In this document: positions 10,845 to 53,379 of the stretch, one piece after another
Numbering within the stretch: the stretch's first letter is position 1
How the letters are laid out: the number at the start of each line of letters is the position of its first letter
NCBI RefSeq assembly: GCF_028289625.1
Contig: NZ_JANQOM010000020.1
Span: 1 to 64,000 of the forward strand
Direction: 5' to 3'
Source: Winogradskyella sp.
Lineage (GTDB): Bacteria > Bacteroidota > Bacteroidia > Flavobacteriales > Flavobacteriaceae
Length of the DNA stretch: 64,000 nt
The notes under the pieces: model-generated
The model's input: the letters and a program-made list of their open reading frames with translations, nothing else
Told to the model about the DNA's origin: nothing
The model's database searches: none
Made by a program: the position numbers and the translations under genes

Positions 10845-12464
10845 ATGGCTGACTATACATCTTCAACGAAAACGATTTCGTTAGAAAAATACGGCATTAA
10901 AAATGCCCAAATCCATTATCAATTAGAGCCCAAACAATTGCAAGCCATTACTGTAGAAAAAGGGATGGGCAAAGAAACACCTAATGGCACCTTAGCTATT
11001 AATACAGGGAAGTTCACTGGTCGTTCACCAGAAGACCGCTTTTTGGTAAAAGATGATTATACTAAGGATCGCATTTGGTGGGGAAAATCCAATAAGGCCA
11101 TTTCACCTGAGCATTTCGATTTTTTACAATCTGAAGTTGAGAAATACCTAAGTGGTAAGGAAGTGTTTGTTAGGGATGGTTATGTTTGTGCTGACCCTAA
11201 ATATAAAATGAACGTAAGGACGGTAACCGAATACCCATGGTCTAACATGTTTATTTATAACATGTTTTTAAGGCCTGATGAGGAAGAGCTAATCGACTTT
11301 GAAGAGGAGTGGCTGGTGCTATGTGCTCCAGGTTACGAATGTCCAAATCATGAAGCACACGGTTTAAGGCAAGGTAATTTCTCCATACTAAATTTCACTA
11401 AAAAGATTGCCTTAGTGGCAGGCTCCGCCTATACAGGTGAAATGAAGAAAGGTATTTTTACCGCCTTAAATTTTATTCTACCTGTAGAGAAAAACGTGTT
11501 GCCGATGCACTGTTCCGCAAATGTTGGTGAAGATGGAGAATCAGCTATATTTTTTGGTCTATCTGGAACAGGAAAAACGACCTTATCCACAGATCCAGAC
11601 CGTCAATTAATAGGTGATGATGAGCATGGATGGACTGTAGAAAACACCATCTTTAATTTTGAAGGTGGTTGCTATGCCAAGGTTATTGACTTGTCAGAAG
11701 AAAAGGAGCCAGATATTTACAGAGCCATTAGACCAGGTGCTATTTTAGAGAATGTCATCTTTAAGGACAATGGTGAAGTCGATTATTTAGATAGTACCAT
11801 TACACAGAATACGCGCGTAAGTTATCCCATTTATCATATCGATAACATAAAAACACCATCATATGCTGCTAACCCGAAGAATATTTTCTTCTTAACGGCA
11901 GACGCATTTGGTGTACTACCTCCAATATCCAAATTAACACCAGCACAGGCCGCTTATCATTTTATTTCGGGATATACGGCAAAGGTTGCAGGTACTGAAG
12001 CTGGAGTTGTAGAACCACAACCATCGTTTTCTGCATGTTTTGGAGCGCCTTTTATGCCTTTACATCCTGCAGAATATGCCGACATGTTGAGTAAAAAAAT
12101 GAAGGAAGCAAATGTTAATGTATGGTTGATTAATACGGGTTGGACAGGTGGTCCTTATGGTGTTGGAACACGTATGAAGCTAAAATATACCAGAGCTATG
12201 ATTACGGCAGCACTTAGCGGTGACTTAGGTGATTATACTTATGAAGATTATCATATTCATTCGGTGTTTGGTGTGGCACAACCTAGAACTTGTCCTGGTG
12301 TACCAACAGAGGTACTGAGCCCTAGAGCCACATGGAATGATGATAAAGCTTATTACGATATGGCATTTAAACTATCTAATGCCTTTAGAGAAAACTTTAA
12401 ACAATTTGAATCTGGTGCCTCTGAAGAAGTTAGACGAGGGGGGCCACAACGTTATAACTATTAA
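10845..12464 (+). CDS. pckA: Phosphoenolpyruvate carboxykinase (ATP)
   Basis: A 539-residue enzyme converting oxaloacetate and ATP to phosphoenolpyruvate, the entry step of gluconeogenesis. The P-loop GLSGTGKTTLS and the metal-binding GDDEHGW follow each other near residues 240-265. The TGRSPEDRF stretch near the N-terminus and the TGWTGGPYG loop near 430 are also typical. The ATG at 10845 gives MADYTSSTK and the normal family length. Upstream codons in frame would start only at TTG. A bidirectional terminator separates it from hemD. Confidence 0.97.
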   Translation: MADYTSSTKTISLEKYGIKNAQIHYQLEPKQLQAITVEKGMGKETPNGTLAINTGKFTGRSPEDRFLVKDDYTKDRIWWGKSNKAISPEHFDFLQSEVEKYLSGKEVFVRDGYVCADPKYKMNVRTVTEYPWSNMFIYNMFLRPDEEELIDFEEEWLVLCAPGYECPNHEAHGLRQGNFSILNFTKKIALVAGSAYTGEMKKGIFTALNFILPVEKNVLPMHCSANVGEDGESAIFFGLSGTGKTTLSTDPDRQLIGDDEHGWTVENTIFNFEGGCYAKVIDLSEEKEPDIYRAIRPGAILENVIFKDNGEVDYLDSTITQNTRVSYPIYHIDNIKTPSYAANPKNIFFLTADAFGVLPPISKLTPAQAAYHFISGYTAKVAGTEAGVVEPQPSFSACFGAPFMPLHPAEYADMLSKKMKEANVNVWLINTGWTGGPYGVGTRMKLKYTRAMITAALSGDLGDYTYEDYHIHSVFGVAQPRTCPGVPTEVLSPRATWNDDKAYYDMAFKLSNAFRENFKQFESGASEEVRRGGPQRYNY

Positions 12465-12483
12465 CGATATTAATCATTGACAT

Positions 12484-12520
12484 AAAAAAAGCGATTCTAA
12501 TTTTTAGAATCGCTTTTTTT
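12484..12520. terminator. Bidirectional terminator between pckA and hemD
   Basis: A perfect 17-bp stem (AAAAAAAGCGATTCTAA and its complement) surrounds a three-base loop, giving a T-tract in both directions. It serves the convergent genes pckA (plus) and hemD (minus). Confidence 0.93.
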
Positions 12521-12540
12521 ATGTTTTCAAGTAAACCTAA

Positions 12541-13290
12541 TTACTTTCCTTTATTTACAGCGTCAATATACTTCTGTAATGCCATAGTCATTGATGGCGT
12601 TTCAGGGGTTGGTGCCGCAATATCTACACGAAGTCCTTTTTCCTTAACCGCTTTAACCGTTGTATTACCAAACACAGCAATACGTGTATCATTTTGTTTA
12701 AAGTCTGGGAAATTATGGAATAGAGACTCTATACCTGATGGGCTAAAAAACACTAGAATATCGTAGTAAACGTCTGCCAAATCCGATAAATCACTAATTA
12801 CGGTTTTATAGAATGTGGCTTGTTTCCAGTTAACGCCCAAATTATCCAAAGTTTCTGGGATAATTGGTTTTACCTTGTCTGTAGTAGGTAATAAAAAGGT
12901 CTCATCCTTGTATTTTTTAATTAAAGGTGTAAGATCTCCAAAAGTACGTTTGCCCACATAGATTTTACGCTTTCTGTAGACAACGTATTTCTGTAAGTAG
13001 TAGGCAACGGCTTCAGATTGGCAGAAATACTTCATGGTATCTGGTACCTTAAAACGCATTTCGTCTGCAATTCTAAAGAAATGATCCACAGAATTTCTGC
13101 TGGTTAAAATAATCGCAGTAAACTTACTGAGATCGATTTTTTGTTGTCTAATTTCTTTTGCTGAAACACCCTCTACATGAATAAAAGGTCTGAAGTCAAC
13201 TTTAACTTTTTGCTTTTCCTGTAAGTCAAAGTATGGAGAGTTCTCTATTTTAGGCTCTGGCTGTGATACTAAAATCGTTTTCACTTTCAT
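12541..13290 (-). CDS. hemD: Uroporphyrinogen-III synthase
   Basis: A 249-residue protein of the HemD family, which cyclises and inverts ring D of hydroxymethylbilane on the way to heme. The family is poorly conserved. Recognisable parts are the start MKVKTILVSQPEP, the ILTSRNSVDHFF segment near residue 60, YFCQSEAVAYYLQ near 90 and the FFSPSGIESLF segment near 180. It follows a DUF4271 membrane protein gene with a 17-base gap, an order commonly found in flavobacteria. Confidence 0.9.
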   Translation of the reverse strand: MKVKTILVSQPEPKIENSPYFDLQEKQKVKVDFRPFIHVEGVSAKEIRQQKIDLSKFTAIILTSRNSVDHFFRIADEMRFKVPDTMKYFCQSEAVAYYLQKYVVYRKRKIYVGKRTFGDLTPLIKKYKDETFLLPTTDKVKPIIPETLDNLGVNWKQATFYKTVISDLSDLADVYYDILVFFSPSGIESLFHNFPDFKQNDTRIAVFGNTTVKAVKEKGLRVDIAAPTPETPSMTMALQKYIDAVNKGK

Positions 13291-13307
13291 AGGTAAACCT
13301 CTTTGTT

Positions 13308-13958
13308 TTAAGCATTATACTCTCTAATTACCTTATATAAAAGCACATAAGGCGCAATTTCGAGAGCGCAAAGATACAACAAAAAATAGAAATAATTGGG
13401 ATTTATTATTTTTTGATAGTTTTTAAATGAAGTTGCAAAGCCAATAAGGTTTATTAAGCAAATCAAAGAAAAAGATACAATTATGATAATTTTTGAATAA
13501 TTCGAAGTGTATAATAACAAAAGGTTGGCAGGTAACAAGATAAACCCTGAGTAGTTAAGGAATGTGATTTTTTGAAACAGGTATCCATCCACAATACTAT
13601 CTATTTCAAAGAGACTACCAATGAGTCGTTCTAATAGTGTTTTGATAATGACAATGACCGCAACTGCAAAGAATAATTTCAGAAAAAAGACCAATTCAAA
13701 CGCTAAGGGAGAAATAAAAGTTGAATAGCTAAAATACAGGAATATACTTCCCGAAAATGCTAGATTAAGAAACAGGAAACCATCAAAAGGATCGATGAAC
13801 TTTTGATCTTTACTGTAAATCTTCAAATATTTGGAATTGCCTATTACTGATAAAAAATCATTAAAGCGCAATGTATTTAGATATTTGGCGATTGTTATGG
13901 CAACTATTCCCAAAATCGTGAATACCGTAAACCACTCGTAAGTAATAAAATTCCGCAT
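13308..13958 (-). CDS. DUF4271 family membrane protein
   Basis: A 216-residue membrane protein with about six hydrophobic helices. The start MRNFITYEWFTVFTILG and its position directly before hemD identify it as the DUF4271 protein of flavobacterial genomes. The biochemical role is unknown. Because it precedes hemD in one transcription unit, a link to heme or membrane assembly has some support from context only. Confidence 0.85.
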   Translation of the reverse strand: MRNFITYEWFTVFTILGIVAITIAKYLNTLRFNDFLSVIGNSKYLKIYSKDQKFIDPFDGFLFLNLAFSGSIFLYFSYSTFISPLAFELVFFLKLFFAVAVIVIIKTLLERLIGSLFEIDSIVDGYLFQKITFLNYSGFILLPANLLLLYTSNYSKIIIIVSFSLICLINLIGFATSFKNYQKIINPNYFYFLLYLCALEIAPYVLLYKVIREYNA

Positions 13959-14042
13959 AATTGCTAAATTATAAAGAAAAAAAAGGGTAACATAATTAAA
14001 ATCTTAATAATCCTATAACAGGTTAGAATCCATTAAAAACTT

Positions 14043-14050
14043 TACATTTG
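14043..14050 (+). promoter_or_regulatory. Candidate -7 box for the mannosyltransferase operon
   Basis: TACATTTG matches TAnnTTTG, with a TTAG (TTG-like) 17 bases upstream. It would give an untranslated leader of about 40 bases before the ATG at 14096. Confidence 0.5.
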
Positions 14051-14095
14051 CTGGAAATTCTATCTGCAACATTATCTTGCTATAAAAGTTTATAA

Positions 14096-14821
14096 ATGTC
14101 CGACGCACTAGTCATCATTCCTACTTATAATGAAATTGAAAACATTGAAGCCATTATTAGGTCTGTGTTTTCACAAGAAAAAGTATTTCATGTTTTGGTA
14201 GTAGATGATAATTCGCCAGATAAAACTGCTGAAAAGGTTAAGACGATACAAAGTGAGTTTTCAGATCAGTTGTTTTTATTAGAACGCAATAAAAAAGAAG
14301 GTTTAGGAAGGGCTTATATCGTTGGATTTAAATGGGCCTTGGAGAAATCCTATGACTATATCTTTGAAATGGATGCCGATTTTTCTCATAATCCAGATGA
14401 CTTAATTAAATTGTATGAAGCCTGTGCTGAAGTAGGTGCTGATGTTTCGGTAGGTTCAAGATATGTAGAAGGTATTACGGTTGTTAATTGGCCGTTGTCT
14501 AGAATTTTGTTGTCTTATGGAGCGTCTAGATACGTGCGTTTTATAACAGGAATGAAGCTTAAAGATTCCACAGCAGGATTTATATGCTATAAAAGAAAAG
14601 TGCTAGAAACCATAGATTTAAATAAAGTAAGATTTATAGGCTATGCGTTTCAAATTGAAATGAAATTTAAAGCGTATAAAAAAGGGTTTCAAATTATTGA
14701 AATTCCTGTTATTTTTAAGGATAGAATTAAAGGAAAATCAAAAATGAGCAGCAGTATTATCTCTGAAGCCATTTTTGGGGTTATTAGTTTAAAATTAAAA
14801 AGCTTATTTACCAAGTCGTAA
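14096..14821 (+). CDS. Polyprenol monophosphomannose synthase (GT2)
   Basis: A 241-residue cytoplasmic GT-A glycosyltransferase of the DPM1 type. LVIIPTYNEIENIE near the N-terminus, VVDDNSPDKT near residue 37 and the metal-binding MDADFSHNP near 92 are diagnostic, as is RFIGYAFQIEMKFKAYKKGF near 180. It transfers a sugar (usually mannose) from GDP-mannose to polyprenyl phosphate. It lacks the C-terminal membrane segments of some relatives. The product would be the donor for GT-C enzymes such as the one at 7067. It is followed four bases later by the dihydroorotase gene. Confidence 0.93.
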   Translation: MSDALVIIPTYNEIENIEAIIRSVFSQEKVFHVLVVDDNSPDKTAEKVKTIQSEFSDQLFLLERNKKEGLGRAYIVGFKWALEKSYDYIFEMDADFSHNPDDLIKLYEACAEVGADVSVGSRYVEGITVVNWPLSRILLSYGASRYVRFITGMKLKDSTAGFICYKRKVLETIDLNKVRFIGYAFQIEMKFKAYKKGFQIIEIPVIFKDRIKGKSKMSSSIISEAIFGVISLKLKSLFTKS

Positions 14822-43055: not shown

Positions 43056-43307
43056 TCAATTAATGTTATTCGATTTTAGAAAAGCTTTTAGTTCAGCAAT
43101 GGTTGGATTTTTCAAATGCTGATTACCATAAATCAGCGTTGGAAACTTGAGTTCCCCATCATATAAGTTTCGCACTTTCTCTTCGGCATCACTATCTTCT
43201 TCAACATTAAAGTCCTCAAATTCTATCCATTCGGATTGTAAAAAATTACGAATTACTGCCGACTTTGTACACCAGCCCGTTCCGTATAATTCTAGTTTCT
43301 TTTCCAT
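43056..43307 (-). CDS. Glutaredoxin-like monothiol protein
   Basis: An 83-residue thioredoxin-fold protein with GTGWCTKSA at 9-17, so only the first Cys of the usual CxxC is present (C13). FPTLIYG near residue 56 carries the cis-Pro. Single-Cys members of this size resemble mycoredoxin- or NrdH-like proteins, and the reductant is unknown. Its start overlaps the end of the antiporter gene by 16 bases, so it is translated from the same transcript. Confidence 0.88.
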   Translation of the reverse strand: MEKKLELYGTGWCTKSAVIRNFLQSEWIEFEDFNVEEDSDAEEKVRNLYDGELKFPTLIYGNQHLKNPTIAELKAFLKSNNIN

Positions 43308-44470
43308 AATTTCATAAGTTTAGGATGTATTTTCTCTGCATTGCTCACAATGAATGGCGTTACTGACATGAGTAGTATTGAAACCGCTAAAAATATCTGA
43401 TAATTATTGGTCGAAATCAATTCGTATTTAAGACCGCTTTGCGCCAATACGAATGAGAACTCCCCAATTTGGGCGATAGAAAAACCAACGGCAAGGGCAG
43501 TTTTCCATTCTAGTTTCATCACCTTAACAGCCAATATTCCTGCGATTGCTTTTACCAATAATGCAAAGAAGAACCAAAAGATAATCCAGCCAAAGTCAGT
43601 TACAAAAATTTCGTAATTCAATAGCATACCCATAGAAATAAAGAAGAAGCTCATAAACACATACCTGAAGGGTAAGAAGCACGAAATTGCCATGTGGTTA
43701 TAATCTGTTTCAGCAATGATTAAACCCGCTATAAATGCACCTAAAGCTAGCGATAATCCTAGTTTTTCTGTTAGAAGGGCAATACCTGTTACCAAAAATA
43801 CAGTAGCGATTAAAAATACTTCTTGACTTTGAACTCTCATAACCGTCTTTAAAAAATAGGGAATAACATAGCGCGCCAATGCATAGGCTATGATGCCCAT
43901 TAAAATCAGTTTACCAAATAACCAACCTAGGGCAGTTACGGGATCTTCTCCTGCACCAGCAAGTATGGGCGTAAACAGCATTAATGGTACAATCATGATG
44001 TCTTGAAAAAGCAATACCGCAAGAATAAATTTCCCGTGCGGTGTTGTAATTTTATTGGTATCCTGAAGTACTTTTACAACGATGGCCGTACTACTCAGTG
44101 CATATAAAAAGCCCCAAAATAAACTCTCTTGGAAGGATGGGCGCATCAGTAACCAAATGAGTCCAGCGGTAATAAATATGGTAAAAAAGACTTGAGCAGC
44201 TCCACCACCTAGCACATAATTTTTTATTTTCTTTAAGTTGGTGAATGAAAACTCTAATCCTACAGTGAATAATAGAAGTATAATGCCAATTTCCGCATAG
44301 ACCTCAACTTCTTTCATATCTGCAAAATAGCTTGATGTATTTGGGCTTAGTAAAACACCAGTAATTAAATATCCGATGATATACCTGATTTTTAAAAACT
44401 TACATATGATGATAACAGCAGTGGCGACTCCGAATATCGCACAAATGTTTATAAGGATATGATGTTGCAT
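43292..44470 (-). CDS. CPA2-type cation:proton antiporter
   Basis: A 392-residue membrane protein with ten to twelve helices of the KefB/KefC transporter domain. YIIGYLITGVLLSPNTSSYF near the N-terminus, FLYALSSTAIVVKVLQD near 125-140 and LGAFIAGLIIAETDYNH near 240-258 are family signatures. The cytosolic TrkA/RCK domain of KefC is missing, so regulation must differ. The downstream overlapping glutaredoxin gene recalls the thiol-dependent control of KefC by glutathione adducts, but that parallel is inference. Confidence 0.92.
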   Translation of the reverse strand: MQHHILINICAIFGVATAVIIICKFLKIRYIIGYLITGVLLSPNTSSYFADMKEVEVYAEIGIILLLFTVGLEFSFTNLKKIKNYVLGGGAAQVFFTIFITAGLIWLLMRPSFQESLFWGFLYALSSTAIVVKVLQDTNKITTPHGKFILAVLLFQDIMIVPLMLFTPILAGAGEDPVTALGWLFGKLILMGIIAYALARYVIPYFLKTVMRVQSQEVFLIATVFLVTGIALLTEKLGLSLALGAFIAGLIIAETDYNHMAISCFLPFRYVFMSFFFISMGMLLNYEIFVTDFGWIIFWFFFALLVKAIAGILAVKVMKLEWKTALAVGFSIAQIGEFSFVLAQSGLKYELISTNNYQIFLAVSILLMSVTPFIVSNAEKIHPKLMKLWKRN

Positions 44471-44554: not shown

Positions 44555-44875
44555 TTAAGGTAACTTGTCATAACCATGAAAACGCTTGCTTACAATGCGT
44601 TTCCATTCGGGATGTCTTTTTATGTAAGCGAATACGTAAGGACAATAAGGCATTAATAGTTTGCCATTATCTTCAATGTACCGCAATGTTTTTTCAACGA
44701 CAGCTGCCGCTGCACCTTTACCAGCTAATTCTGGTTCGGTTTCGGTATGGACCAAAGCAATATGATTGCCGTATTCACCAAAATTGATAAAGGCATAATA
44801 TCCGTCTATGTTAATTTCAAAGCGTTTCTTTTCATCGTTTTTGACTAAAGGAATGTCGATATATTCTTGTTTCAT
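44555..44875 (-). CDS. GNAT N-acetyltransferase, YidJ/YjdJ (CG) type
   Basis: A 106-residue minimal acetyltransferase. ALVHTETEPELAGKGAAAAVVEKTLRYI and PYCPYVFAYIKRHPEW are characteristic of the short GNAT group (Pfam Acetyltransf_CG). The acetyl-CoA loop is A-G-K-G-A. The acceptor is unknown. It starts 12 bases after the porin stop and is the last gene of the pirin-to-GNAT run. Confidence 0.9.
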   Translation of the reverse strand: MKQEYIDIPLVKNDEKKRFEINIDGYYAFINFGEYGNHIALVHTETEPELAGKGAAAAVVEKTLRYIEDNGKLLMPYCPYVFAYIKRHPEWKRIVSKRFHGYDKLP

Positions 44876-44887
44876 TTTTTGATGTTT

Positions 44888-46213
44888 TTAAAATTTAAAT
44901 TCTGTTGTAAATACAAAATGATATAAGGGATCTCCAAGGCCACTTTCTTTTAGGAAAGCCCCAGGAAAGATGATATTGGATTCTAATTCGAAATTTAAGA
45001 ATTTATTGAGTTCGTAGCTTACAATACCTCCTAATTGATGACCTATGAACCGTTCGTTATTTATAGATGGATATTCCAATATCAATGCTGGATTATATAA
45101 ACCATCATTTCTCGATAATCGCCAAAAAGCAACATAGTCTAATTGCACATTTACGTCTCCTAATTGGGTCTCCAAATAAGGATGAATATCAAATAAGTTT
45201 GAAGGCCCAAACCTGGCGACACGTCCAAAATAGGCACCTCTTGGGTATAAGCCATCAAAGGTGTTTAGTGCGCCGTCATCACTGTCTCCACTTATCGCTT
45301 CCGTTTTAAGTCCAAGGGTTCCGAATGAAAAGTCACTTTCAATATTAAAGGATGCCGTCCACGCTCTAATATCTTGATCTCCAAAAGATCCAAACTGATA
45401 TACAAATTCATTATTGTATTTTAATCCTTTCCACTCGCCAAAATGACGCAGGCCGATTGAAGCACGATTGTCATCAGCAGTTCCGGCGTTCCATGTTTTG
45501 TTCTCTTCAGTTTTATAAAGGATATAAATATCTGTGTTGGTTGCCTCGGTCCAGTGCTGTATCCAATACAAAACACTCAAAGCTTCATTACCTTCTAAGG
45601 CATCATTGTCAAAAACGCCTTCTTGTTGCTGTACAGGAATGGCATGAACAGCAATAACTTCGGTATTACTATCTTTAAATCGCAATTGTGCCATATCGAA
45701 AGATAGACGTACATTGGGCCCTTCGCGCACATCGACTAAACGACCACTTCCGAGCCGCATATTTTGTCTACCTACGAGTAGCTCCCATTGGTCTGAAAAA
45801 TGGTATTTAAAGAACAACTGATTAAAACTCAATTCATCTCTATCCACTGGAACCAGGTTGTCCTTACTAGTAATTAAACTAGAATTTAATTCGGAAAACA
45901 CTTCAATCTTGTCATTTACTTTTAAATGGGCATGAAGCATAAATCGATTTAAAAACCAATAATCGGTCTGATCTACACTTTTGTCAAACTGCTCATTTAT
46001 AAATGCTTCGGTTTGAAAACGATAACTTCCGCCAAAACTTAATGTTGTTGTTTCAGACAGTCGAAGTTGCTTCAGTTGTTTATAGAATGAATCTGGATTT
46101 TCAATTTGAATGACATCATTTTGCCGAAGCAAACTGAAGTTCAGTTGGTTGTCTTCTTGCGACCAAATAGTAAAAGTAACTAAGCAAATTATGCATAGCG
46201 CTGATGCTTTCAT
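44888..46213 (-). CDS. Alginate-export-like outer-membrane porin
   Basis: A 441-residue beta-barrel with a signal peptide (1-19, ending IWSQ). GGSYRFQTEAFINE, YWFLNRFMLHAHLKVNDKIEVFSELNSS and LLVGRQNMRLGSGRLVDVREGPNVRLSFD correspond to the alginate_export family (Pfam PF13372). Despite the name, such porins in non-alginate producers probably move small organic molecules. Its ATG overlaps the DoxX stop (ATGA), so it belongs to the same operon. Confidence 0.88.
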   Translation of the reverse strand: MKASALCIICLVTFTIWSQEDNQLNFSLLRQNDVIQIENPDSFYKQLKQLRLSETTTLSFGGSYRFQTEAFINEQFDKSVDQTDYWFLNRFMLHAHLKVNDKIEVFSELNSSLITSKDNLVPVDRDELSFNQLFFKYHFSDQWELLVGRQNMRLGSGRLVDVREGPNVRLSFDMAQLRFKDSNTEVIAVHAIPVQQQEGVFDNDALEGNEALSVLYWIQHWTEATNTDIYILYKTEENKTWNAGTADDNRASIGLRHFGEWKGLKYNNEFVYQFGSFGDQDIRAWTASFNIESDFSFGTLGLKTEAISGDSDDGALNTFDGLYPRGAYFGRVARFGPSNLFDIHPYLETQLGDVNVQLDYVAFWRLSRNDGLYNPALILEYPSINNERFIGHQLGGIVSYELNKFLNFELESNIIFPGAFLKESGLGDPLYHFVFTTEFKF

Positions 46214-46641
46214 TTTTTGCTGCTAAACAATTTATAATCTAATGAGTATTTACCGGCACCAAGAAAAAACAGGGCTAAGTAAGCTAACGAATACATTAAC
46301 GGTACATCTTTTACTGACCAAGGGTCGTTGCCATGCACTATGAAGAATCCCATTAAGGTAACGCTTATTATGGGTAGTATAGCTAATCGGGTTCCTAGTC
46401 CTAATATTACAAAAATCGGCGCAACAATATTGGCAATAATCGCTATTATGGCGCTTACTTCACCACCAACTCCTATAGGATCTGGAATATGTGCAACCGT
46501 GCCTTCAAAATCCAAAAGCTTTTTCATGCCATGCGTATTGATCATGGACAGTGATACTAATACCCTAAATAATAGTAACGTTAAGTCTTTCGATAAAAAT
46601 GTTGATTGGTCAGAAAATAGTTTTTGGATTGTCTTTTCCAT
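46210..46641 (-). CDS. DoxX family membrane protein
   Basis: A 143-residue protein with four membrane helices. LLLFRVLVSLSMINTHGMKKLLDFEG and the closing GAGKYSLDYKL match DoxX-like proteins, often linked to quinone or thiol redox reactions in the membrane. It overlaps the porin gene by four bases and lies 73 bases after YceI, a gap that contains a strong hairpin. Confidence 0.88.
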   Translation of the reverse strand: MEKTIQKLFSDQSTFLSKDLTLLLFRVLVSLSMINTHGMKKLLDFEGTVAHIPDPIGVGGEVSAIIAIIANIVAPIFVILGLGTRLAILPIISVTLMGFFIVHGNDPWSVKDVPLMYSLAYLALFFLGAGKYSLDYKLFSSKK

Positions 46642-46665
46642 TTCTAAAAAGATGTTTAATGCATA

Positions 46666-46695
46666 TAGAAGCGATGAAAACCAACATCGCTTCTA
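46666..46695 (-). repeat. Intra-operon hairpin between YceI and DoxX genes
   Basis: A perfect 11-bp stem (TAGAAGCGATG and CATCGCTTCTA) with an eight-base loop lies 20 bases after the YceI stop. No T-tract follows on the minus strand, so it is more likely an mRNA stabiliser or partial attenuator than a full terminator. Confidence 0.6.
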
Positions 46696-46714
46696 AATCA
46701 GTTGGGCTTCAGGC

Positions 46715-47239
46715 TTATTCCTTAATAAATTGAAGTTCTATTGCGAGCTTAATAGTATCTCCGACAACAACACTACCTGCTTCAGTGACGGCATTCCATG
46801 TTAAGCCAAATTCTTTTCTGCTGATGCTACCAGAGATTTCAAAACCTGCTTTGGTCTGGCCATATGGGTCAACAGCTATACCGTTAAAGTCCATATCTAA
46901 AGAGATTTCTTTAGTTACGTCTTTAATAGTTAAATCACCAATAACTTTTGAGCCATCAAAAGATTTGGACTTGAATGTCATTTCAGGAAAAGATGCAACA
47001 TTGAAGAAATCTTCTGATTTTAAGTGGTTGTCTCTATCCTTGTTTTTAGTATTGATAGAATTAACTTTTGCCGAAAAGTTAAACCGTGCATCATTAAAAT
47101 CTTCTGTGTCCGTTTCAACTGAAGCTATGAAGTCTTCAAAGTGACCACTTACTGTTGAAATCATCATGTGTTTTACTTTAAATCCTATTTCAGAATGTGC
47201 TGTATCGACATTCCATGTTGTTTTTGTTATTGTTTCCAT
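46715..47239 (-). CDS. YceI-like domain protein
   Basis: A 174-residue lipocalin-like beta-barrel of the YceI family, which binds isoprenoid or other long hydrophobic molecules. TWNVDTAHSEIGFKVKHMMISTVSGHFEDF is the signature, and HLKSEDFFNVASFPEMTFKS follows near residue 75. No signal peptide is visible, unlike E. coli YceI, so this copy is probably cytoplasmic. It lies 51 bases after the amidohydrolase gene. Confidence 0.94.
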   Translation of the reverse strand: METITKTTWNVDTAHSEIGFKVKHMMISTVSGHFEDFIASVETDTEDFNDARFNFSAKVNSINTKNKDRDNHLKSEDFFNVASFPEMTFKSKSFDGSKVIGDLTIKDVTKEISLDMDFNGIAVDPYGQTKAGFEISGSISRKEFGLTWNAVTEAGSVVVGDTIKLAIELQFIKE

Positions 47240-47290
47240 TTTTATTGTTTTTTGATTATTTATTATTCGTTTTATATTTTGGGATTTGAA

Positions 47291-49129
47291 TTAGTCCAAA
47301 TACAATTTTCTAAAATCACCAGTACGATAGAGTGGCGACCAATCTGGCGCAACATCTGGTAAAGCTGGTGGAGCAAATTTTTGGAAATCATCATAAGCGT
47401 GGACAATTTTTCCTCCAAGACCAGTTAACTTAGCGTGTGTTCTAGGAATTAAGGCATCTGGAACTTCCATCACATCCTGATTTAAAATTGTGAAGTCTGC
47501 TAACTGCCCTTCTTTTATCTGTCCTTTTTTACCATCATCACCAGTAAACCAAGCTGATCCTTTTGTCCATAATCCAATGGCTTCCTCTCTTGTTAAGATG
47601 TTGTCATCACCATACATTTGACGCCCACCTCTAGATTGTCCTGTAGCTAACCAATGAATAGAGTACCATGGGTTGTAAGAGCTAACCCGTGTAGCATCGG
47701 TTCCACCACCAACAGGAATGCCCATTTTTAGCATCTTTTTAATTGGCGGTGTTTGTGCCAATGCAGCTGCTCCATAATTCTTCACAAAGTCTTCGGCTTG
47801 ATAAGCAATTCTATTTTGGATTGCGATACCTAAATCTAATTTGGCAATACGCTCTAGAGTTCTTTCGTCAAAAGTTTCACCATGGTCAATAAAAGTTCCT
47901 TTCGGTAGTTTACCATCACCTGCAGCGGCAACTTCTTCATACATATCCAATAAAATCTGAGCAGATTCATTATAGGTGACGTGCTGTCTCCATGGCCAGT
48001 TATTTTCAGCTAATAACTTATAAATGGGTAAGGCAACCTCTCTAACATTTGGCTCCAAGTTAGGACGTTGCTGCGCAAAGATTTCATAATCATAAGCCGC
48101 CCATGCAATATTCTCACCACCACCAATGAATCGATACATATCATCACCATCACCTGGTTTAACCATGCCTATCCATCGTTTGTAATCGTCGTATTCTCGA
48201 CCTCCGACTTGTGGAAACGTATGAATACCTACGCGTACCGTTGATAACCCCTGTTTGTTTACATCTTGAATAACATCATATGCATCTGGGTATTGCATAC
48301 CGCCACCACCAGCGTCAGACAATGAAGTCAACCCAAGAGCATTCATCTCATTCATAAAGTGTTGAGTTCCCAAAACTTGCTGAGGTCTAGTCATTTTGGG
48401 TAACTTGGTAAGTGTTTTGTACATGATTAAGCCAGAGGGTGCTGCAGTAATAATTCCCGTAGCTCGACCATTTCGGTCTTTTTCTATACGGCCTTTGTGG
48501 TATAAATCAATAGGTTCATTATCATAATTTAAAACCTCAATGGCTTTTCTGTTGAGCATACCATAGGCATAGAGATAAAAAATGTATACTGGATGGTTAG
48601 GTGCTACCTTGTTAATCTCATCTAAGGTAGGCATGCGTTTCTCTTTGAATTGTTCCCATGAAAATCCGCCTACTACGCGTATCCACTGACCTTTAGGTGT
48701 GTGTTTTACTTCTTCAGCTAACATTGCTAAGGCTTCTTCAACAGAGCTTACCCAATCCCATCGTAATTCTAAACCATAATGTAAACCTTCTCTAACACCA
48801 TGAGTGTGTGAGTCGTTAAGACCAGGTATAACTCTGTGCCCTTTGGCATCGATTACCTTTGTTTGTCGCCCAATTAGTTCAGATACTGCACTGTTAGAGC
48901 CTACACGATAAAACTTACTATCTTTGATGGCAAAGGCTTCTGCATTGGGGGCTTTAGGGTCTATGGTTGTAACTTTGGCATTGCGCACAACCAAATCTGC
49001 CGAACCTTTTATTTGAAAAAAGGGACTTCCAAAGACAGATGATGGCATTATTAAGGTTGATGCACCTGCTGCCATAGTGCCTTTGATGAAGTCTCTCCGA
49101 CGCATGTTGTTTGTTGTTTTATTTTTCAT
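47291..49129 (-). CDS. Exported amidohydrolase, YtcJ-like
   Basis: A 612-residue metal-dependent amidohydrolase of the amidohydrolase 3 (YtcJ) type. The N-terminus MRRRDFIKGTMAAGAST (R10-R12, F14) is a Tat signal, so the folded enzyme is exported. The metal site has H108 and H110 (NDSHTHGVREG), and DHGETFDERTL and GGTDATRVSSYNPW lie near 415 and 500. The ring-opening or amide substrate is unknown. It is separated from the isochorismatase-family gene upstream by 104 bases containing a hairpin. Confidence 0.9.
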   Translation of the reverse strand: MKNKTTNNMRRRDFIKGTMAAGASTLIMPSSVFGSPFFQIKGSADLVVRNAKVTTIDPKAPNAEAFAIKDSKFYRVGSNSAVSELIGRQTKVIDAKGHRVIPGLNDSHTHGVREGLHYGLELRWDWVSSVEEALAMLAEEVKHTPKGQWIRVVGGFSWEQFKEKRMPTLDEINKVAPNHPVYIFYLYAYGMLNRKAIEVLNYDNEPIDLYHKGRIEKDRNGRATGIITAAPSGLIMYKTLTKLPKMTRPQQVLGTQHFMNEMNALGLTSLSDAGGGGMQYPDAYDVIQDVNKQGLSTVRVGIHTFPQVGGREYDDYKRWIGMVKPGDGDDMYRFIGGGENIAWAAYDYEIFAQQRPNLEPNVREVALPIYKLLAENNWPWRQHVTYNESAQILLDMYEEVAAAGDGKLPKGTFIDHGETFDERTLERIAKLDLGIAIQNRIAYQAEDFVKNYGAAALAQTPPIKKMLKMGIPVGGGTDATRVSSYNPWYSIHWLATGQSRGGRQMYGDDNILTREEAIGLWTKGSAWFTGDDGKKGQIKEGQLADFTILNQDVMEVPDALIPRTHAKLTGLGGKIVHAYDDFQKFAPPALPDVAPDWSPLYRTGDFRKLYLD

Positions 49130-49191
49130 TGAATTAATAATTACAGGATTGGACTTAGATGTTTTGATTGTGGACTAAAAGAGGATTGCAA

Positions 49192-49219
49192 AGCACCCCA
49201 AATCTATTTATGAGGTGCT
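49192..49219 (-). terminator. Weak terminator or attenuator after the isochorismatase gene
   Basis: AGCACCTCA and TGGGGTGCT (minus strand, one wobble) form a 9-bp stem with a 10-base loop, followed only by TTTGC. It starts 14 bases after the stop at 49234. The short T-tract suggests partial read-through into the amidohydrolase gene. Confidence 0.5.
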
Positions 49220-49233
49220 AATCAGAATTATTA

Positions 49234-49983
49234 CTAGTTTTTCTTTTCCTCTTCTTTTGCCCATTTTTGCATAGTTTTGATATAATCGATACCTAAACCA
49301 TAAGCTCCACCATATCTTTTAGCCAGTTCATTCACTTCGATATACTGGTCAGAACGCGACCAGTCTCTGTAGATTTCCAATAAGTATTGCATAGAGGTCA
49401 TGGGGATAACGCCCGCTTGAATCATACGTGCCATAGCCATATCATGAGCCTCTTGGGATACAGCACCAGAGGCATCAGAAATCACATAGACTTCATAGCC
49501 ATCTTCTAAAGCAGATAGCGCAGCTAAGTTGATACATACTTCTGTCCAAAGCCCAGCCATCACAAGTTTTTTCTTTCCAGTGGCTTCAACAGCTTTTATA
49601 AAGTTAGTGTCCTCCCATGAATTCATGGTGGTACGATCTACATAAGTACTTTCATCTGGATAATACTCTCTAATTTCTGGAAAAACCGGACCGGAAAATT
49701 GTCTTTCGGCCACAGTCGTTACAATTGTTGGAACCTTGAATAATTTTGATGCACCAGCAATTAAACCGGCATTGTTTCTCAATTCTTCAATGGGTTGTGA
49801 TTCCACAGCAAATGCCATCTGACCTTCGTGATCAATTAAAATTAGGGCATGATTAGTTGGATTTAAGACTTGCTCAGCTGCCTTTGATGGATCATTAACT
49901 GGATTAGGATTGTACTGTGTCCATTGCGCAAATGACACCGTTGATATTAATAGTGCGACAATAGTTAATTTTAAAGTTTTCAT
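49234..49983 (-). CDS. Exported isochorismatase-family hydrolase, YcaC-like
   Basis: A 249-residue cysteine hydrolase. The ATG at 49983 gives a signal peptide (MKTLKLTIVALLISTVSFAQ). An ATG seven codons upstream is possible. D51 (LILIDHEGQ) and C150 (GLWTEVCINL) are the expected nucleophile-site pair, and SDASGAVSQEAHDMAMARM is typical of YcaC. The natural substrate of YcaC is unknown, and relatives hydrolyse amides or enol ethers. Family members are normally cytoplasmic, so the signal peptide is unusual. It lies between pirin and the amidohydrolase. Confidence 0.9.
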   Translation of the reverse strand: MKTLKLTIVALLISTVSFAQWTQYNPNPVNDPSKAAEQVLNPTNHALILIDHEGQMAFAVESQPIEELRNNAGLIAGASKLFKVPTIVTTVAERQFSGPVFPEIREYYPDESTYVDRTTMNSWEDTNFIKAVEATGKKKLVMAGLWTEVCINLAALSALEDGYEVYVISDASGAVSQEAHDMAMARMIQAGVIPMTSMQYLLEIYRDWSRSDQYIEVNELAKRYGGAYGLGIDYIKTMQKWAKEEEKKN

Positions 49984-50194
49984 TTTTTTGTTTTTTATGC
50001 TCATTGATTGAGCGGTTGATATTTGTTTGAGTTATGTTTTCGTTATCATGAAGCCTTTCGCATGAGGCGACTATTTATTCTTCGCTTTAAATGGTTGTAT
50101 TGCGTAAGGTTTCTGTTAGCAGCATGGCAGTTAAAGTGTCTGCATGCTTCTATGAATCGAACGTTTACCATTTTTAATTTTCCTTTCTATTAGA
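49984..50194 (-). other. 211-base gap between pirin and isochorismatase genes
   Basis: No gene is seen. AGCATGGCAG (50121-50130) and CTGCATGCT (50140-50148) form a stem with one bulged base, without a T-tract. No sigma-54-type GG-N10-GC pair or TAnnTTTG box was found in the minus direction, so transcription from the pirin promoter may read through. Confidence 0.4.
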
Positions 50195-51085
50195 TTATAT
50201 GGTCATCGGAACTTCCATTAGTAATACTTCAGCATTACTATCGGATTCTATGGTCAGTTCTTCAATATTAGAAATACCCATGCCATCTCTTTCATTTAAT
50301 GATTCACCGTTTATGGTGACATCCCCTTTAATGATAAAAGCGTAAACACCATTATTTTTTGAATCTTTTAATTGATAGTTAACATACTTTCCTTTATCGA
50401 GGTTGGCCATGTGAAACCATGCATTTTGGTGAATCCATACACCATCGTCTTCTGCATTTGGTGACAATACTTGTTGTAGTTTGTTTTGTCTGTCTATAGT
50501 ATTTAACGTGATTTGGTCGTAACGAGGTTGAACGCTTTTTTTGTTTGGGAAAACCCAAATCTGAAGAAATTTCACTTTCTCATCAGCGTTGGCATTGTAC
50601 TCAGAATGCATTATTCCAGTACCTGCACTCATCACCTGAATATCACCCGATTTAATAATAGTTTTGTTGCCCATGTTGTCTTCGTGCTTTAGGTCGCCCT
50701 CTAATGGAATAGAAATAATTTCCATATCGCGATGTGGATGTGTACCAAAACCTTGACTTTCTGCGACGATATCGTCATTTAATACTCTTAATACACCAAA
50801 GTGCATACGCTCTGGGTTATGGTAATTGGCAAAACTAAAAGTGTGTCTTGACTGTAACCAGCCATGATTAGCACTTCCTCTTGTGTCTGCTTTGTGAATT
50901 ATAGTATTCACGTTTTCTACTGTTGTTTTCATAATGTTTTGATCTTTATTAGGTAAATGGTTGTAACCAACTTTTTTTAACTCGGCTTTAGCAGTTTCAG
51001 AATTGGTTTTAGCTAAAGCTGAAACACCTAACGTTGAAGCTATTGTTCCGACTATAGATGTTTTTAAAAAGTCCTTACGTTTCAT
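50195..51085 (-). CDS. Pirin family protein with N-terminal export signal
   Basis: A 296-residue bicupin. Residues 1-25 (MKRKDFLKTSIVGTIASTLG then VSALA) look like a Tat-type signal with KRK in place of RR, followed by a 26-residue linker; the pirin proper begins near residue 52 (MKTTVENVNTIIHKAD). SRHTFSFANYHNPERMHFG, GFGTHPHRDMEI and SAGTGIMHSEYN give the metal-binding cupin residues (HPH, then H and E). Some pirins have quercetin 2,3-dioxygenase activity. An exported pirin is unusual. It is preceded by a sigma-54-type promoter and divergent from a sigma-54 activator. Confidence 0.9.
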   Translation of the reverse strand: MKRKDFLKTSIVGTIASTLGVSALAKTNSETAKAELKKVGYNHLPNKDQNIMKTTVENVNTIIHKADTRGSANHGWLQSRHTFSFANYHNPERMHFGVLRVLNDDIVAESQGFGTHPHRDMEIISIPLEGDLKHEDNMGNKTIIKSGDIQVMSAGTGIMHSEYNANADEKVKFLQIWVFPNKKSVQPRYDQITLNTIDRQNKLQQVLSPNAEDDGVWIHQNAWFHMANLDKGKYVNYQLKDSKNNGVYAFIIKGDVTINGESLNERDGMGISNIEELTIESDSNAEVLLMEVPMTI

Positions 51086-51113
51086 ATTACTTGTTTTTGT
51101 TTGGTGTTTTATA

Positions 51114-51130
51114 GGCTATTCTTGTGCCAA
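51114..51130 (-). promoter_or_regulatory. Sigma-54 (-24/-12) promoter of the pirin operon
   Basis: On the minus strand TTGGCAC-AAGAA-TAGCC contains a perfect -24 element (TTGGCAC) and, exactly ten bases after the GG, the invariant GC of the -12 element (TAGC instead of TTGC). Transcription would start near 51104, about 20 bases before the pirin ATG. The divergent gene encodes a sigma-54 activator, which strongly supports the call. Confidence 0.8.
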
Positions 51131-51180
51131 AAAATCATTTATTTGATTACCAGTGTTTTATGTTGAGTTTTGGGGGAATA

Positions 51181-51204
51181 AAAATTCTAATTTTTTAGAA
51201 TTTT
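51181..51204. promoter_or_regulatory. Perfect inverted repeat, candidate activator-binding site
   Basis: AAAATTCTAA (51181-51190) and TTAGAATTTT (51195-51204) flank TTTT. The repeat lies 50-75 bases upstream of the -24 element of the pirin promoter and 52 bases before the activator's own ATG, a fitting place for an upstream activator sequence and for autoregulation. Confidence 0.5.
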
Positions 51205-51255
51205 CTATTATATGAGAAATTTTAATTGTATTTTAACAATCTAATTATTGGTTTA

Positions 51256-53379
51256 ATGGACAACAATATTCCTTTTGAAATTTTCCGAGAAAAATTTTTT
51301 GAAAACCTTCCCTACAAGATTATGTGGATGGATGAATTGGGTAAGATAATCTATGCTAATACTAAGTTTTTAAAGCGCTTAGGTTATACCAGAAATGAGT
51401 TAAAAAAGCTAACCATTTTTGATATCAATCCGTCTACCACAACAGAAACTTGGAAAGATCATTGGGATAAAGTAAGCTATGAGAGGTTTCATAGCTTTAA
51501 AGCAGTGCACCAAACCAAAAAAGGAAATTACTATGATGTTGAGGTTTCTGCTCATTTTTTCTCAAATAATGGAAAAAAGATTATAGCAGCTATAGTTAAT
51601 GATATTTCCGAGTCGAGTTTTTACAAAAATCTGTTGAACCATGCTGAACGTATGAATCATATTGGAGGTTGGAAATTAAATTTGCAGGATGGTTCTATCA
51701 TTGTAACCCAAGAATCTTTTAAAATATTCGAAACCGATAATCCGCAAGAATTTTTACCAAGTGTGGTCATTCATCGCTTTGAAGAATCAGAACACTTAAA
51801 GGCATTAATGAGTAAGGCCATGAGAAATGGCGCAGACTATGATGAAATCCTTACCCTTAAAAGAAAATCTGGTGAACTACGCTATTTAAGGTGTGTCACT
51901 GAACCAGTGATTAAAAAAGACAAAATTTATAGGTTGATTGGAACATATCAAGATGTTACAGAAGAAGTTGAAAAGAAAAACAGACTCCAGTTTTTTAAAG
52001 AAATAATTGATAATGCTGAGGATTTATTTTATCTCTACAATAGAGAAGGGAAGCTATTACATTATAGTGAGTCTGTGGTTAAGGCGCTTGGATTTTCTAA
52101 ATCTGAACTTGACAGTTTTTGGATTTATGATTTAGATTCGAGGATTACGAAAGAATGGTGGTACAGCCACTTTGACGAGATAAAAGAAAAAGGAGCAGTG
52201 CATCTTGAGTGGATGATTTCACGAAAAGACGGAACTGCTTTCCCAGCAGATATTATCGCGAATCATTTAGTCTATAATGGTGAAGATATCAACTGTGCCG
52301 TAATTAGAGATGTTTCACGGTTAAAAGAAAATGAGCAACAACTAAAAGTTGCACTAGACGAGCTATCGGAATTAAAAGATGAACTTGAAATAGACAACCA
52401 ATATTTACGTGAAGAAATCAGTAGCAAAATAAATTTGAATAATATTATTTGTAGAAGCAAAGCATATAAAGTAGTCCTTGACCAAGTCACACAGGTAGCC
52501 GTTACTGATTCCACCGTTTTAATCACTGGAGAGTCAGGTACGGGTAAGGAACTTTTGGCAAGTGCAGTACATTTAAATAGCCTGAGAAGTGATCGTCCTC
52601 TAATAAAGGTAAATTGTGCAACCCTGCCCAAAGAACTTTTTGAGAGCGAACTATTTGGGCATAAAAAGGGATCGTTTACTGGTGCAATAAATGATAAAGT
52701 GGGAAAATTTAGTCTGGCTGATGGCGGGACCATCTTCTTAGATGAAATTGGTGAGGTGCCTATTGATTTACAAGCAAAATTATTGCGTGTTTTGCAAGAA
52801 GGTGAATTTGATCAACTAGGAGCAACATCAACTACAAAAATTGATGTCAGAATTATTGCAGCGACGAATCGTAACTTGAAGGAGATGGTTAAAGACGGGA
52901 ATTTTCGTGAAGACTTGTATTATAGGCTAAATGTTTTTCCAATACACAATATTCCATTAAGAGCCAGAAAAGATGATATACCATTATTGGCGCAGTTCTT
53001 TCTTGAAAAATATTCTGCAAAAGCAGGTAAATCATTCAAGCGACTTTCTAAACAAACCACAGAGCGATTAATGGATTATAATTTTCCTGGGAATATAAGA
53101 GAGTTAGAAAACTTAATCGAACGTGCCGTCATTATTGAAAATGGTACTACGCTTAAACCAGGGTCTTGGATGCCGAATCAAAATATTGCCTTGGCTTCAG
53201 ATGCGTTTAAAACTTTGGATGAAACACAAAGAGACCACATTATTAAAGTATTGGATTTTACGAATTGGCGTGTTAGCGGACCTAAAGGTGCAGCAACTAT
53301 TTTAGGGATGAAGGATAAGACCCTTTTTGCCAGAATGAAAAAATTAGGCATTGAAAAACAGATTGGTTTAAAGCGATAA
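51256..53379 (+). CDS. Sigma-54-dependent transcriptional activator with three PAS domains
   Basis: A 707-residue bacterial enhancer-binding protein. Three PAS domains (about 15-120, 130-240 and 250-355) are followed by a coiled coil (356-392), the AAA+ domain (about 397-620; Walker A GESGTGKE at 425-432, sigma-54 contact loop GSFTGA at 472-477, LDEIGEVP) and a Fis-type helix-turn-helix (about 665-705). The loop has Ser instead of Ala in GAFTGA, a common variant. The ATG at 51256 is used because the longer frame would begin at TTG. The PAS domains suggest a small-molecule, redox or gas signal. It is divergent from the pirin operon, its probable target. Confidence 0.94.

Follow-up and report, generated by a model that had tools for sequence, protein, structure and literature searches.

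A nine-gene sigma-54 block around exported pirin, YcaC-like and YtcJ-type enzymes as a candidate operon for detoxification of phenol- or quinone-like electrophiles in Winogradskyella

The window analysed here is a stretch of 64,000 nucleotides from Winogradskyella sp. (RefSeq assembly GCF_028289625.1, contig NZ_JANQOM010000020.1, positions 1 to 64,000). It contains a run of nine co-directional genes, from a pirin to a glutaredoxin-like protein, which diverges from the gene of a sigma-54-dependent activator with PAS domains (Table 1). Judged from its sequence, this block almost certainly forms one unit under joint sigma-54 regulation. In our favoured reading, which we hold with slightly more confidence than doubt, it would be a horizontally spread operon whose products detoxify electrophiles of the phenol or quinone type and may in part also make use of them.

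The −24/−12 promoter ahead of the pirin gene, TGGCACAAGAATAGCC, scores 19.5 of 23.2 with weights that follow the general sigma-54 consensus, and none of 200 shuffled sequences reaches this score. Among related loci, described below, the best box score averages 18.6 in 26 activator-linked loci versus 14.5 in 30 other pirin loci; for these averages, as for the first signal-peptide counts, pirin starts were taken as ATG only. Of 27 activator-linked sequences including the window, 24 have the pattern TGGCAY-N7-G 40–52 bases ahead of the pirin start (the exceptions are L019, L030, and L094), compared with 1 of 29 others. Farther upstream lies an imperfect dyad, TTTCTCATATAATAGAAA in the window, with the consensus TTTCTC-N6-(T/C/G)AGAAA, in which ten of 18 positions are invariant among 25 elements and which keeps a spacing of about 72 bases to the box across loci. 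Scored on the same loci from which it was derived, the element precedes the pirin start by 129–138 bases in 25 of the 27 activator-linked sequences (window included; not L030 and L094) and, at p 0.05, occurs in 2 of the 29 other pirin loci, 137 (L033) and 161 (L031) bases before the start. L033 has an activator two genes away, and the upstream side of L031 is lost at the contig end.

A blind search of 349 family genomes with the composite pattern of element and box returned 10 places in 9 genomes, nine of them at this block, while a reversed-pattern control gave 0 in every genome listed. Eight places, including the single site of the window's own genome, precede a pirin gene divergent from an activator, and a ninth (G467) precedes ycaC-ytcJ. 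In this genome the block is split into pirin-yceI and ycaC-ytcJ units, each with the same promoter before it; the distance between the two promoters is 6.9 kb. The tenth match (G160) falls within the reading frame of an ApbE protein, spans 99 bases against 103 in the others, and was rejected as a regulon member. At least two of the eight other genomes found (G533 and G454) appear to be those of loci that had supplied the pattern (L035 and L039). Setting aside these two and the own genome leaves 7 places, spread over 6 genomes, of which 6 are at the block. Since nine of the ten places fall at the block, we regard it as one regulon.

The predicted transcription machinery is present as well. The genome has one rpoN match (E 1.3e-52), and the AAA+ domain of the activator (PF00158, 239 bits) carries the loop GSFTGA, a variant of GAFTGA; 30 relatives of the activator have GAFTGA in 25 cases, GSFTGA in three, GTFTGA in one, and no such loop in one. 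The first-pass annotation had read the genes as one unit under a three-PAS sigma-54 activator. The conserved box, the upstream element, and rpoN bear out the unit, and two of the PAS stretches pass with Pfam and with the NCBIfam sensory_box model, while the third, seen by eye only, is plausible. The activator is predicted to bind the upstream element. On the pirin strand, the sequence TATAAT occurs within this element, and TTAAAA-18-TATAAT is among the hits of a sigma-70 scan, so that the element might instead be a sigma-70 promoter. However, TATAAT is missing from 18 of the 25 elements, which nevertheless retain TTCT and GA, and the scan lists 28 such sites versus 30.0 in shuffles, which is no excess.

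Conservation of the block was followed through its YcaC-like hydrolase. A YcaC-only scan of genome contigs gave 96 confirmed loci, of which the best 80 (L016–L095) were used; they include many close relatives, and counts carry no phylogenetic correction. By frame clustering, with one member per cluster tested for its Pfam, NCBIfam, or PDB label, the 80 loci contain ytcJ in 78, the porin in 64, the pirin cluster in 60 (56 above 300 bits), DoxX in 39, YceI in 36, and the sigma-54 activator in 34, besides a Crp-type regulator (32) and a GNAT-family cluster (30). The nearest locus is that of a Winogradskyella metagenome-assembled genome (95%). In marine Flavobacteriia, the layout varies on activator, divergent from pirin, ycaC, ytcJ, yceI, (tyrosinase, SCO1), doxX, (YdcZ), porin, (gnat, Fer4, kefB, grx), with optional genes in brackets. 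In Chryseobacterium, a Crp-type regulator, often MhqO-type dioxygenases, a GNAT protein, an Abhydrolase_2 esterase, and an antiporter stand upstream of pirin, ycaC, ytcJ, doxX, and porin. Thus, the enzyme core stays constant while the regulator varies. Gene order recurs in other orders and the core in another phylum, which was the neighbourhood comparison suggested with the first-pass annotation; the refuting outcome named there, a gene order that relatives do not share, did not arise.

The two hydrolases are the most tightly linked members. In a phylum sample of 395 genomes including the own, limits were fixed beforehand, after the YcaC matches in 60 relatives had been seen (E ≤ 1e-45 for YcaC and pirin, E ≤ 1e-90 for YtcJ). 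Of the 394 other genomes, 14 have YcaC and 13 have YtcJ, all 13 being common to both (15 and 14 of 395 with the own genome), and the sole YcaC genome without YtcJ, G195, has a YcaC of 39% identity. The hypergeometric probability of this co-occurrence is 1.9e-23 (N 395, again without phylogenetic correction). With the own genome included, YtcJ lies within 2.6 kb of 19 of 20 YcaC copies, and YcaC is equally near 18 of 21 YtcJ copies. Independent events are fewer than these counts, because about half of the carrier genomes belong to one genus. Chance neighbourhood was rejected on account of the order kept across loci, the YcaC–YtcJ co-occurrence, and the blind promoter search.

The activator and the seven genes from pirin to GNAT that had been annotated at first all open at their coordinates and belong to the families assigned to them by Pfam; the co-directional run, which had been taken to end at GNAT, extends through the antiporter and the glutaredoxin to 43056. 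From pirin to glutaredoxin, the intergenic gaps measure 190, 104, 51, 73, −4, 12, 84, and −16 bases, the last being an overlap of the glutaredoxin gene with the antiporter gene, and a terminator scan found 2 terminators versus 5.6 expected. Among 38 genomes of the genus, a 98% match to the antiporter is found only in the other block carrier (G017), and three others have homologues of 42%; likewise, in the sample of 60 relatives, strong YcaC matches among genus members are confined to the own genome and G017. As the antiporter is near-identical only in block-bearing genomes of the genus, it belongs with the block, which is common to two species. The antiporter is accompanied by glutaredoxin in 9 of the 80 loci, and in 6 of these both follow the barrel in the same direction. 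This co-directional arrangement and the confinement of the near-identical antiporter to the two block carriers led us to reject a block end at GNAT.

Two further observations concern the barrel end of related blocks. In a sister Winogradskyella block, a YdcZ-cluster membrane protein (L016:13765-14214) separates DoxX from the barrel; the window lacks such a gene at this place, and its doxX and porin genes share 4 bases. In 22 loci, a cluster of 256-residue proteins with a signal-like N-terminus follows the barrel in Chryseobacterium-type blocks (e.g. L067:13922-14689) and its resemblance to M17 aminopeptidases is confined to their N-terminal domain.

Table 1. Genes and promoter elements of the block in the window
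Feature	Position	Strand	Evidence and remarks
Sigma-54-dependent activator with PAS domains	51226..53379	+	PF00158 E 2.6e-71; PAS_9 in two stretches; start TTG 51226 or ATG 51256
Putative upstream activator site TTTCTCATATAATAGAAA, imperfect dyad	51202..51219	-	72 bases before sigma-54 box; 18/18 match in window
Sigma-54 (−24/−12) promoter TGGCACAAGAATAGCC	51114..51129	-	44 bases before pirin ATG
Pirin, YhhW/quercetinase type	50195..51085	-	PF02678 and PF17954; YhhW 1tq5 E 3.9e-65
YcaC-like cysteine hydrolase, Sec signal	49234..50004	-	PF00857 (Isochorismatase); 4wgf E 3.5e-36
YtcJ-type amidohydrolase, canonical Tat signal	47291..49129	-	Amidohydro_3 PF07969 E 2.1e-94
YceI-like protein without signal peptide	46715..47239	-	PF04264
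DoxX membrane protein	46210..46641	-	PF07681
Outer-membrane beta-barrel, alginate-export type ("porin")	44888..46213	-	Alginate_exp PF13372 E 1.7e-46
Small GNAT-like protein (Acetyltransf_CG)	44555..44875	-	PF14542
Cation/proton antiporter (Na_H_Exchanger family), eighth gene of run	43292..44470	-	PF00999
Glutaredoxin-like protein, ninth gene of run	43056..43307	-	PF00462

The three leading enzymes have intact candidate active sites and export signals, the latter assigned by a simple heuristic or by eye. Both pirin domains score above cut-off (PF02678 115.7 bits; PF17954, the quercetinase C-terminal cupin, 97.9 bits). H116, H118, H160, and E162, each shared by 95% or more of 57 sequences, align with positions 57, 59, 101, and 103 of Escherichia coli YhhW, which we take to be its metal ligands (three His and one Glu). 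YhhW is the top structure match and has the same four ligand positions. The window pirin is a dioxygenase candidate; unlike YhhW, it carries an N-terminal export signal and has about 60 residues ahead of the pirin domain. This signal is of a Tat-like RK-x-F-L type, and [M/V/L]-x-R-[K/N]-x-F-[L/I] opens 50 of 56 pirins (49 RK and 1 RN), in 10 of them from a non-ATG start (5 GTG, 5 TTG). TatC is present in the genome, and Tat export of the pirin appears plausible. A second pirin match of the same genome lies outside the block (G000:C65:25766-26083).

In the YcaC-like hydrolase, D58, R124, and C157 correspond to D19, R84, and C118 of Pseudomonas aeruginosa YcaC, given as catalytic in the available part of its structure report (PMC4519933), and are conserved in at least 95% of 81 sequences. 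With 153 of the 310 bits that set the cut-off of the YcaC equivalog NF041461, the protein is YcaC-like rather than YcaC. A hydrophobic N-terminal segment is found in 79 of the 80 loci and takes the form of a Sec signal in the window. The YtcJ-type amidohydrolase (PF07969, 318 bits versus a cut-off of 29.7) opens with a canonical RR-x-F-I Tat signal. Among 39 sequences, its candidate metal ligands H108, H110, H383, and D478 are invariant and H416 is nearly so, and E339 perhaps joins them; this His/Asp set would bind the metal. The RR/Tat type accounts for 13 of 76 YtcJ sequences, while other forms, 40–44% identical, have lipoprotein-like or Sec-like N-termini. YtcJ types of ~41% identity swap within otherwise similar blocks (L020, L022, L025 versus L019, L021, L023), and L033 carries both (10859-12670 and 12715-14550). 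The export signals claimed for the three leading enzymes hold in the window (Tat-like for pirin, Sec for YcaC, canonical Tat for the amidohydrolase), and export of these enzymes is supported in Bacteroidota. YceI, with a signal-like segment in 0 of 37 relatives, should be cytoplasmic, and its role as an exported lipid-binding protein was rejected. DoxX has a sub-threshold match to HvfX of copper-RiPP (ribosomally synthesized and post-translationally modified peptide) maturation (47.9 of 80 bits), and a copper link is conceivable with the tyrosinase and SCO1 of relatives.

The substrate theme emerges from the partners that the block acquires in relatives. A cluster present in 19 of the 80 loci has a member (L095) that matches MhqO (3oaj, E 1.5e-68) and 2,6-dichlorohydroquinone dioxygenase (E 1.1e-48). 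Tyrosinase and SCO1 clusters occur in 8 of the 80 loci each, and all 8 block tyrosinases carry, by eye, RR-x-F-L signals. The locus L043 adds a Flavodoxin_2 protein, presumably of quinone-reductase fold. Moreover, 6PGD, G6PD, and 6PGL lie between pirin and ycaC in L047 (5862-9505), the locus in which these families were tested. Together with the glutaredoxin and the antiporter, the MhqO-type dioxygenase, tyrosinase with SCO1, Flavodoxin_2, and the NADPH enzymes make defence against phenol or quinone electrophiles the simplest reading. The first-pass annotation had proposed a small aromatic, quinone-like, or amide compound; the aromatic and quinone part is seen in some relatives, while amide substrates are left without specific support. 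Genes of similar size occupy the L047-type position in three Chryseobacterium loci (L050, L061, L074). The tyrosinase-cluster gene adjoins a SCO1/SenC-cluster gene in L024, L027, L029, L034, L035, L036, L041, and L080, and the best PDB match of the L036 tyrosinase/polyphenol-oxidase relative is to mollusc hemocyanins.

Relatives of the core are also found on plasmids of other phyla. YcaC matched 544 and YtcJ 375 plasmid records, and 203 of the 544 with a YcaC relative are typed conjugative. We read 10 of the 60 YtcJ-anchored regions listed (nine proteobacterial, one from Streptomyces) and 3 of the 25 YcaC-anchored ones. With phmmer, a YcaC close to YtcJ was found in 7 of these 10 regions (the exceptions are L103, L108, and L109), which corresponds to 7 of the 9 proteobacterial regions. 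By annotation, the 10 regions contain XapX/DUF1427 in 8, DoxX in 6, and a VOC or ring-cleaving dioxygenase in 4. Two YcaC-anchored regions include YtcJ and DoxX, and the third has neither: this Rhizobium plasmid (L098), an exception to the pairing, has a YcaC with a signal-like N-terminus and, behind it, a gene annotated as a c-type cytochrome. By annotation, a region of a Pseudosulfitobacter plasmid comprises a ring-cleaving dioxygenase, hydrolases, XapX, YcaC, YtcJ, DoxX, GNAT, MFS, and a pirin that matches the window pirin weakly (phmmer, 26.7 bits); a Novosphingobium region has the same barrel family. The proteobacterial YcaC-XapX-YtcJ-DoxX clusters thus share the YcaC/YtcJ/DoxX core with the window, and some of them also a ring-cleaving or VOC dioxygenase, GNAT, pirin, or the barrel family. 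In contrast, they use LysR, AraC, or other regulators, add XapX and often MFS, and mostly have YcaC without a signal. No paper on these clusters was found in our searches, which left most subscription papers out of reach.

From these features we infer the following scheme, which covers the substrate class, the order of the enzymes, the periplasmic site, and the contributions of DoxX, YceI, antiporter, and glutaredoxin. The PAS-containing activator would respond to a small molecule or redox signal and bind TTTCTC-N6-(T/C/G)AGAAA some 90 bases upstream of the −24/−12 promoter, whereupon sigma-54 RNA polymerase would transcribe the genes from pirin to glutaredoxin. The compound may pass through the outer-membrane barrel. 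Pirin, loaded with metal in the cytoplasm and exported by Tat, would oxidise or ring-open it, and the exported YcaC and YtcJ, an almost obligate pair, would hydrolyse the products. The membrane or quinone side might be handled by DoxX in the inner membrane and YceI in the cytoplasm, while antiporter and glutaredoxin would shield the cytoplasm from compound that leaks through. The more specific proposal of periplasmic ring-opening, in which exported pirin acts as a dioxygenase and YcaC–YtcJ, a pair found together in two phyla, hydrolyse its products outside the cytoplasm before toxic phenolics or quinones reach cytoplasmic thiols, under the dedicated sigma-54 activator and dyad element, is tentative, and we consider it possible but doubtful.

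Several points weigh against detoxification by the block as outlined. Internal promoters are possible behind pirin and ycaC because of the long gaps of 190 and 104 bases, and in three of the nine loci with antiporter and glutaredoxin (L020–L022) opposite-strand genes separate these from the barrel. Pirin is not universal at the block (60 of 80 loci by cluster), is annotated in only 2 of the 10 plasmid YtcJ regions, and occurs without the block in many genomes; its match in 145 of the 395 phylum genomes at 1e-45 marks it as a promiscuous member. Its signal reads RK rather than RR (49 of 50). On proteobacterial plasmids, 9 of 10 YcaC sequences have by eye no signal and 6 of 12 YtcJ sequences an RR signal. 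As plasmid YcaC mostly lacks a signal, export is not general, and an envelope location is a Bacteroidota trait rather than part of the definition of the system; with YceI predicted to be cytoplasmic, the envelope location first proposed for the whole pathway is not supported. Further, an MhqO-type dioxygenase gave no match in the own genome (94% complete, searched without a positive control), nor did tyrosinase or SCO1 in the window, so that the quinone theme comes from a minority of relatives. Within the esterase cluster, the member tested (L064) reaches 31.9 of 325 bits, far under the MhqD cut-off, and this esterase has no match in the window.

Other functions were weighed against the same evidence. 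The block could serve nutrition rather than a stress response, as a catabolic operon for one specific aromatic, flavonoid, or N-acyl/formamide compound, which the barrel imports, pirin ring-opens, and YcaC and YtcJ hydrolyse. The substrate-type barrel and the paired hydrolases fit this, catabolic operons are often run by sigma-54 activators, plant-associated genera are foremost among the plasmid records, and two phage records label a YtcJ relative nfdA, the name of a formamide deformylase. However, neither the window block nor the Pfam-tested partner clusters contain a ring hydroxylase, CoA ligase, or thiolase, and antiporter, glutaredoxin, and NADPH enzymes are present instead; we judge this reading unlikely. 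A general response to oxidants such as hypochlorite or thiol oxidants, with enzymes that have no common substrate, would explain glutaredoxin, antiporter, DoxX, G6PD/6PGD, and the Dps-type proteins of three plasmid regions. Such a loose stress set would not need near-obligate YcaC–YtcJ neighbours with intact active-site residues; the ring-cleaving dioxygenase and tyrosinase partners also speak against it. By analogy only, Staphylococcus aureus mhqRED answers methylhydroquinone and not reactive oxygen species or hypochlorous acid, according to the part of that account available (PMC6798810), and we consider a general oxidant response quite unlikely.

Inactivation of an antibiotic or of a lactam or amide by the two hydrolases is very improbable. 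Lactamases of the isochorismatase family do exist, but of five E. coli members including YcaC, the accessible part of the report assigns gamma-lactamase activity to RutB only (PMC12553813), and the redox partners would stay unexplained. Finally, the genes might be unrelated neighbours under separate control, with the sigma-54 gene incidental. The two intergenic gaps over 100 bases would agree with this, yet an order conserved across orders, one specific promoter, and a split block that carries this promoter twice leave it scarcely credible.

The closest described relatives of the block are the PA1202–PA1205 operon of P. aeruginosa, under BexR, and the MhqR regulons; PA1202 is presumably YcaC-like, and the B. 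subtilis quinone set presumably has a DoxX member. As far as the available parts of two reports go, PA1202–PA1205 is a strongly co-regulated putative operon of a predicted hydrolase (PA1202), a redox protein, an NADPH-dependent FMN reductase (PA1204) with reported quinone oxidoreductase activity, and a pirin homologue (PA1205), for which the authors suggest small-molecule detoxification (PMC2796861, PMC4051601); homology of PA1202 to a predicted E. coli hydrolase is noted in the first (PMC2796861). Like the window, this operon combines an isochorismatase-type hydrolase with a pirin. It differs in its bistable LysR regulator BexR and its flavin quinone reductase, both absent from the window block, and in these accounts has no YtcJ, YceI, DoxX, barrel, antiporter, or sigma-54 control. 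The MhqR, YodB, and QsrR regulons of Bacillus subtilis and Staphylococcus aureus direct ring-cleaving dioxygenases, a hydrolase/esterase, and quinone reductases against quinones, in the part of the source available (PMC6798810). An MhqO-type dioxygenase is shared with some relatives of the window block, whereas MhqR-type regulons have MarR-type repressors in place of a PAS/sigma-54 regulator and, by the available description, no pirin, YcaC, YtcJ, or barrel. No paper on combinations of pirin, YceI, DoxX, isochorismatase, and YcaC was found in the literature searched, most subscription papers being outside reach. The initial view that no described system has this composition should be qualified, because in PA1202–PA1205 a YcaC-like hydrolase, a pirin, and a quinone reductase already share one putative operon. 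Operons for electrophile or quinone detoxification are already known, and the present composition is undescribed as far as the literature searched reaches.

The precise function of YcaC is unknown according to the available part of its structure report (PMC4519933). Here, a YcaC-like subfamily and one amidohydrolase subfamily are near-obligate partners in Bacteroidota and neighbours on proteobacterial plasmids, and this fixed partner makes the role of YcaC testable in an assay of the pair. Moreover, the promoter signature finds the regulon from sequence alone. If the reading with an exported pirin is true, the block would provide an envelope-level defence against quinones and phenols, relevant to rhizobia as well as to flavobacteria that live on algae, sponges, or plants.

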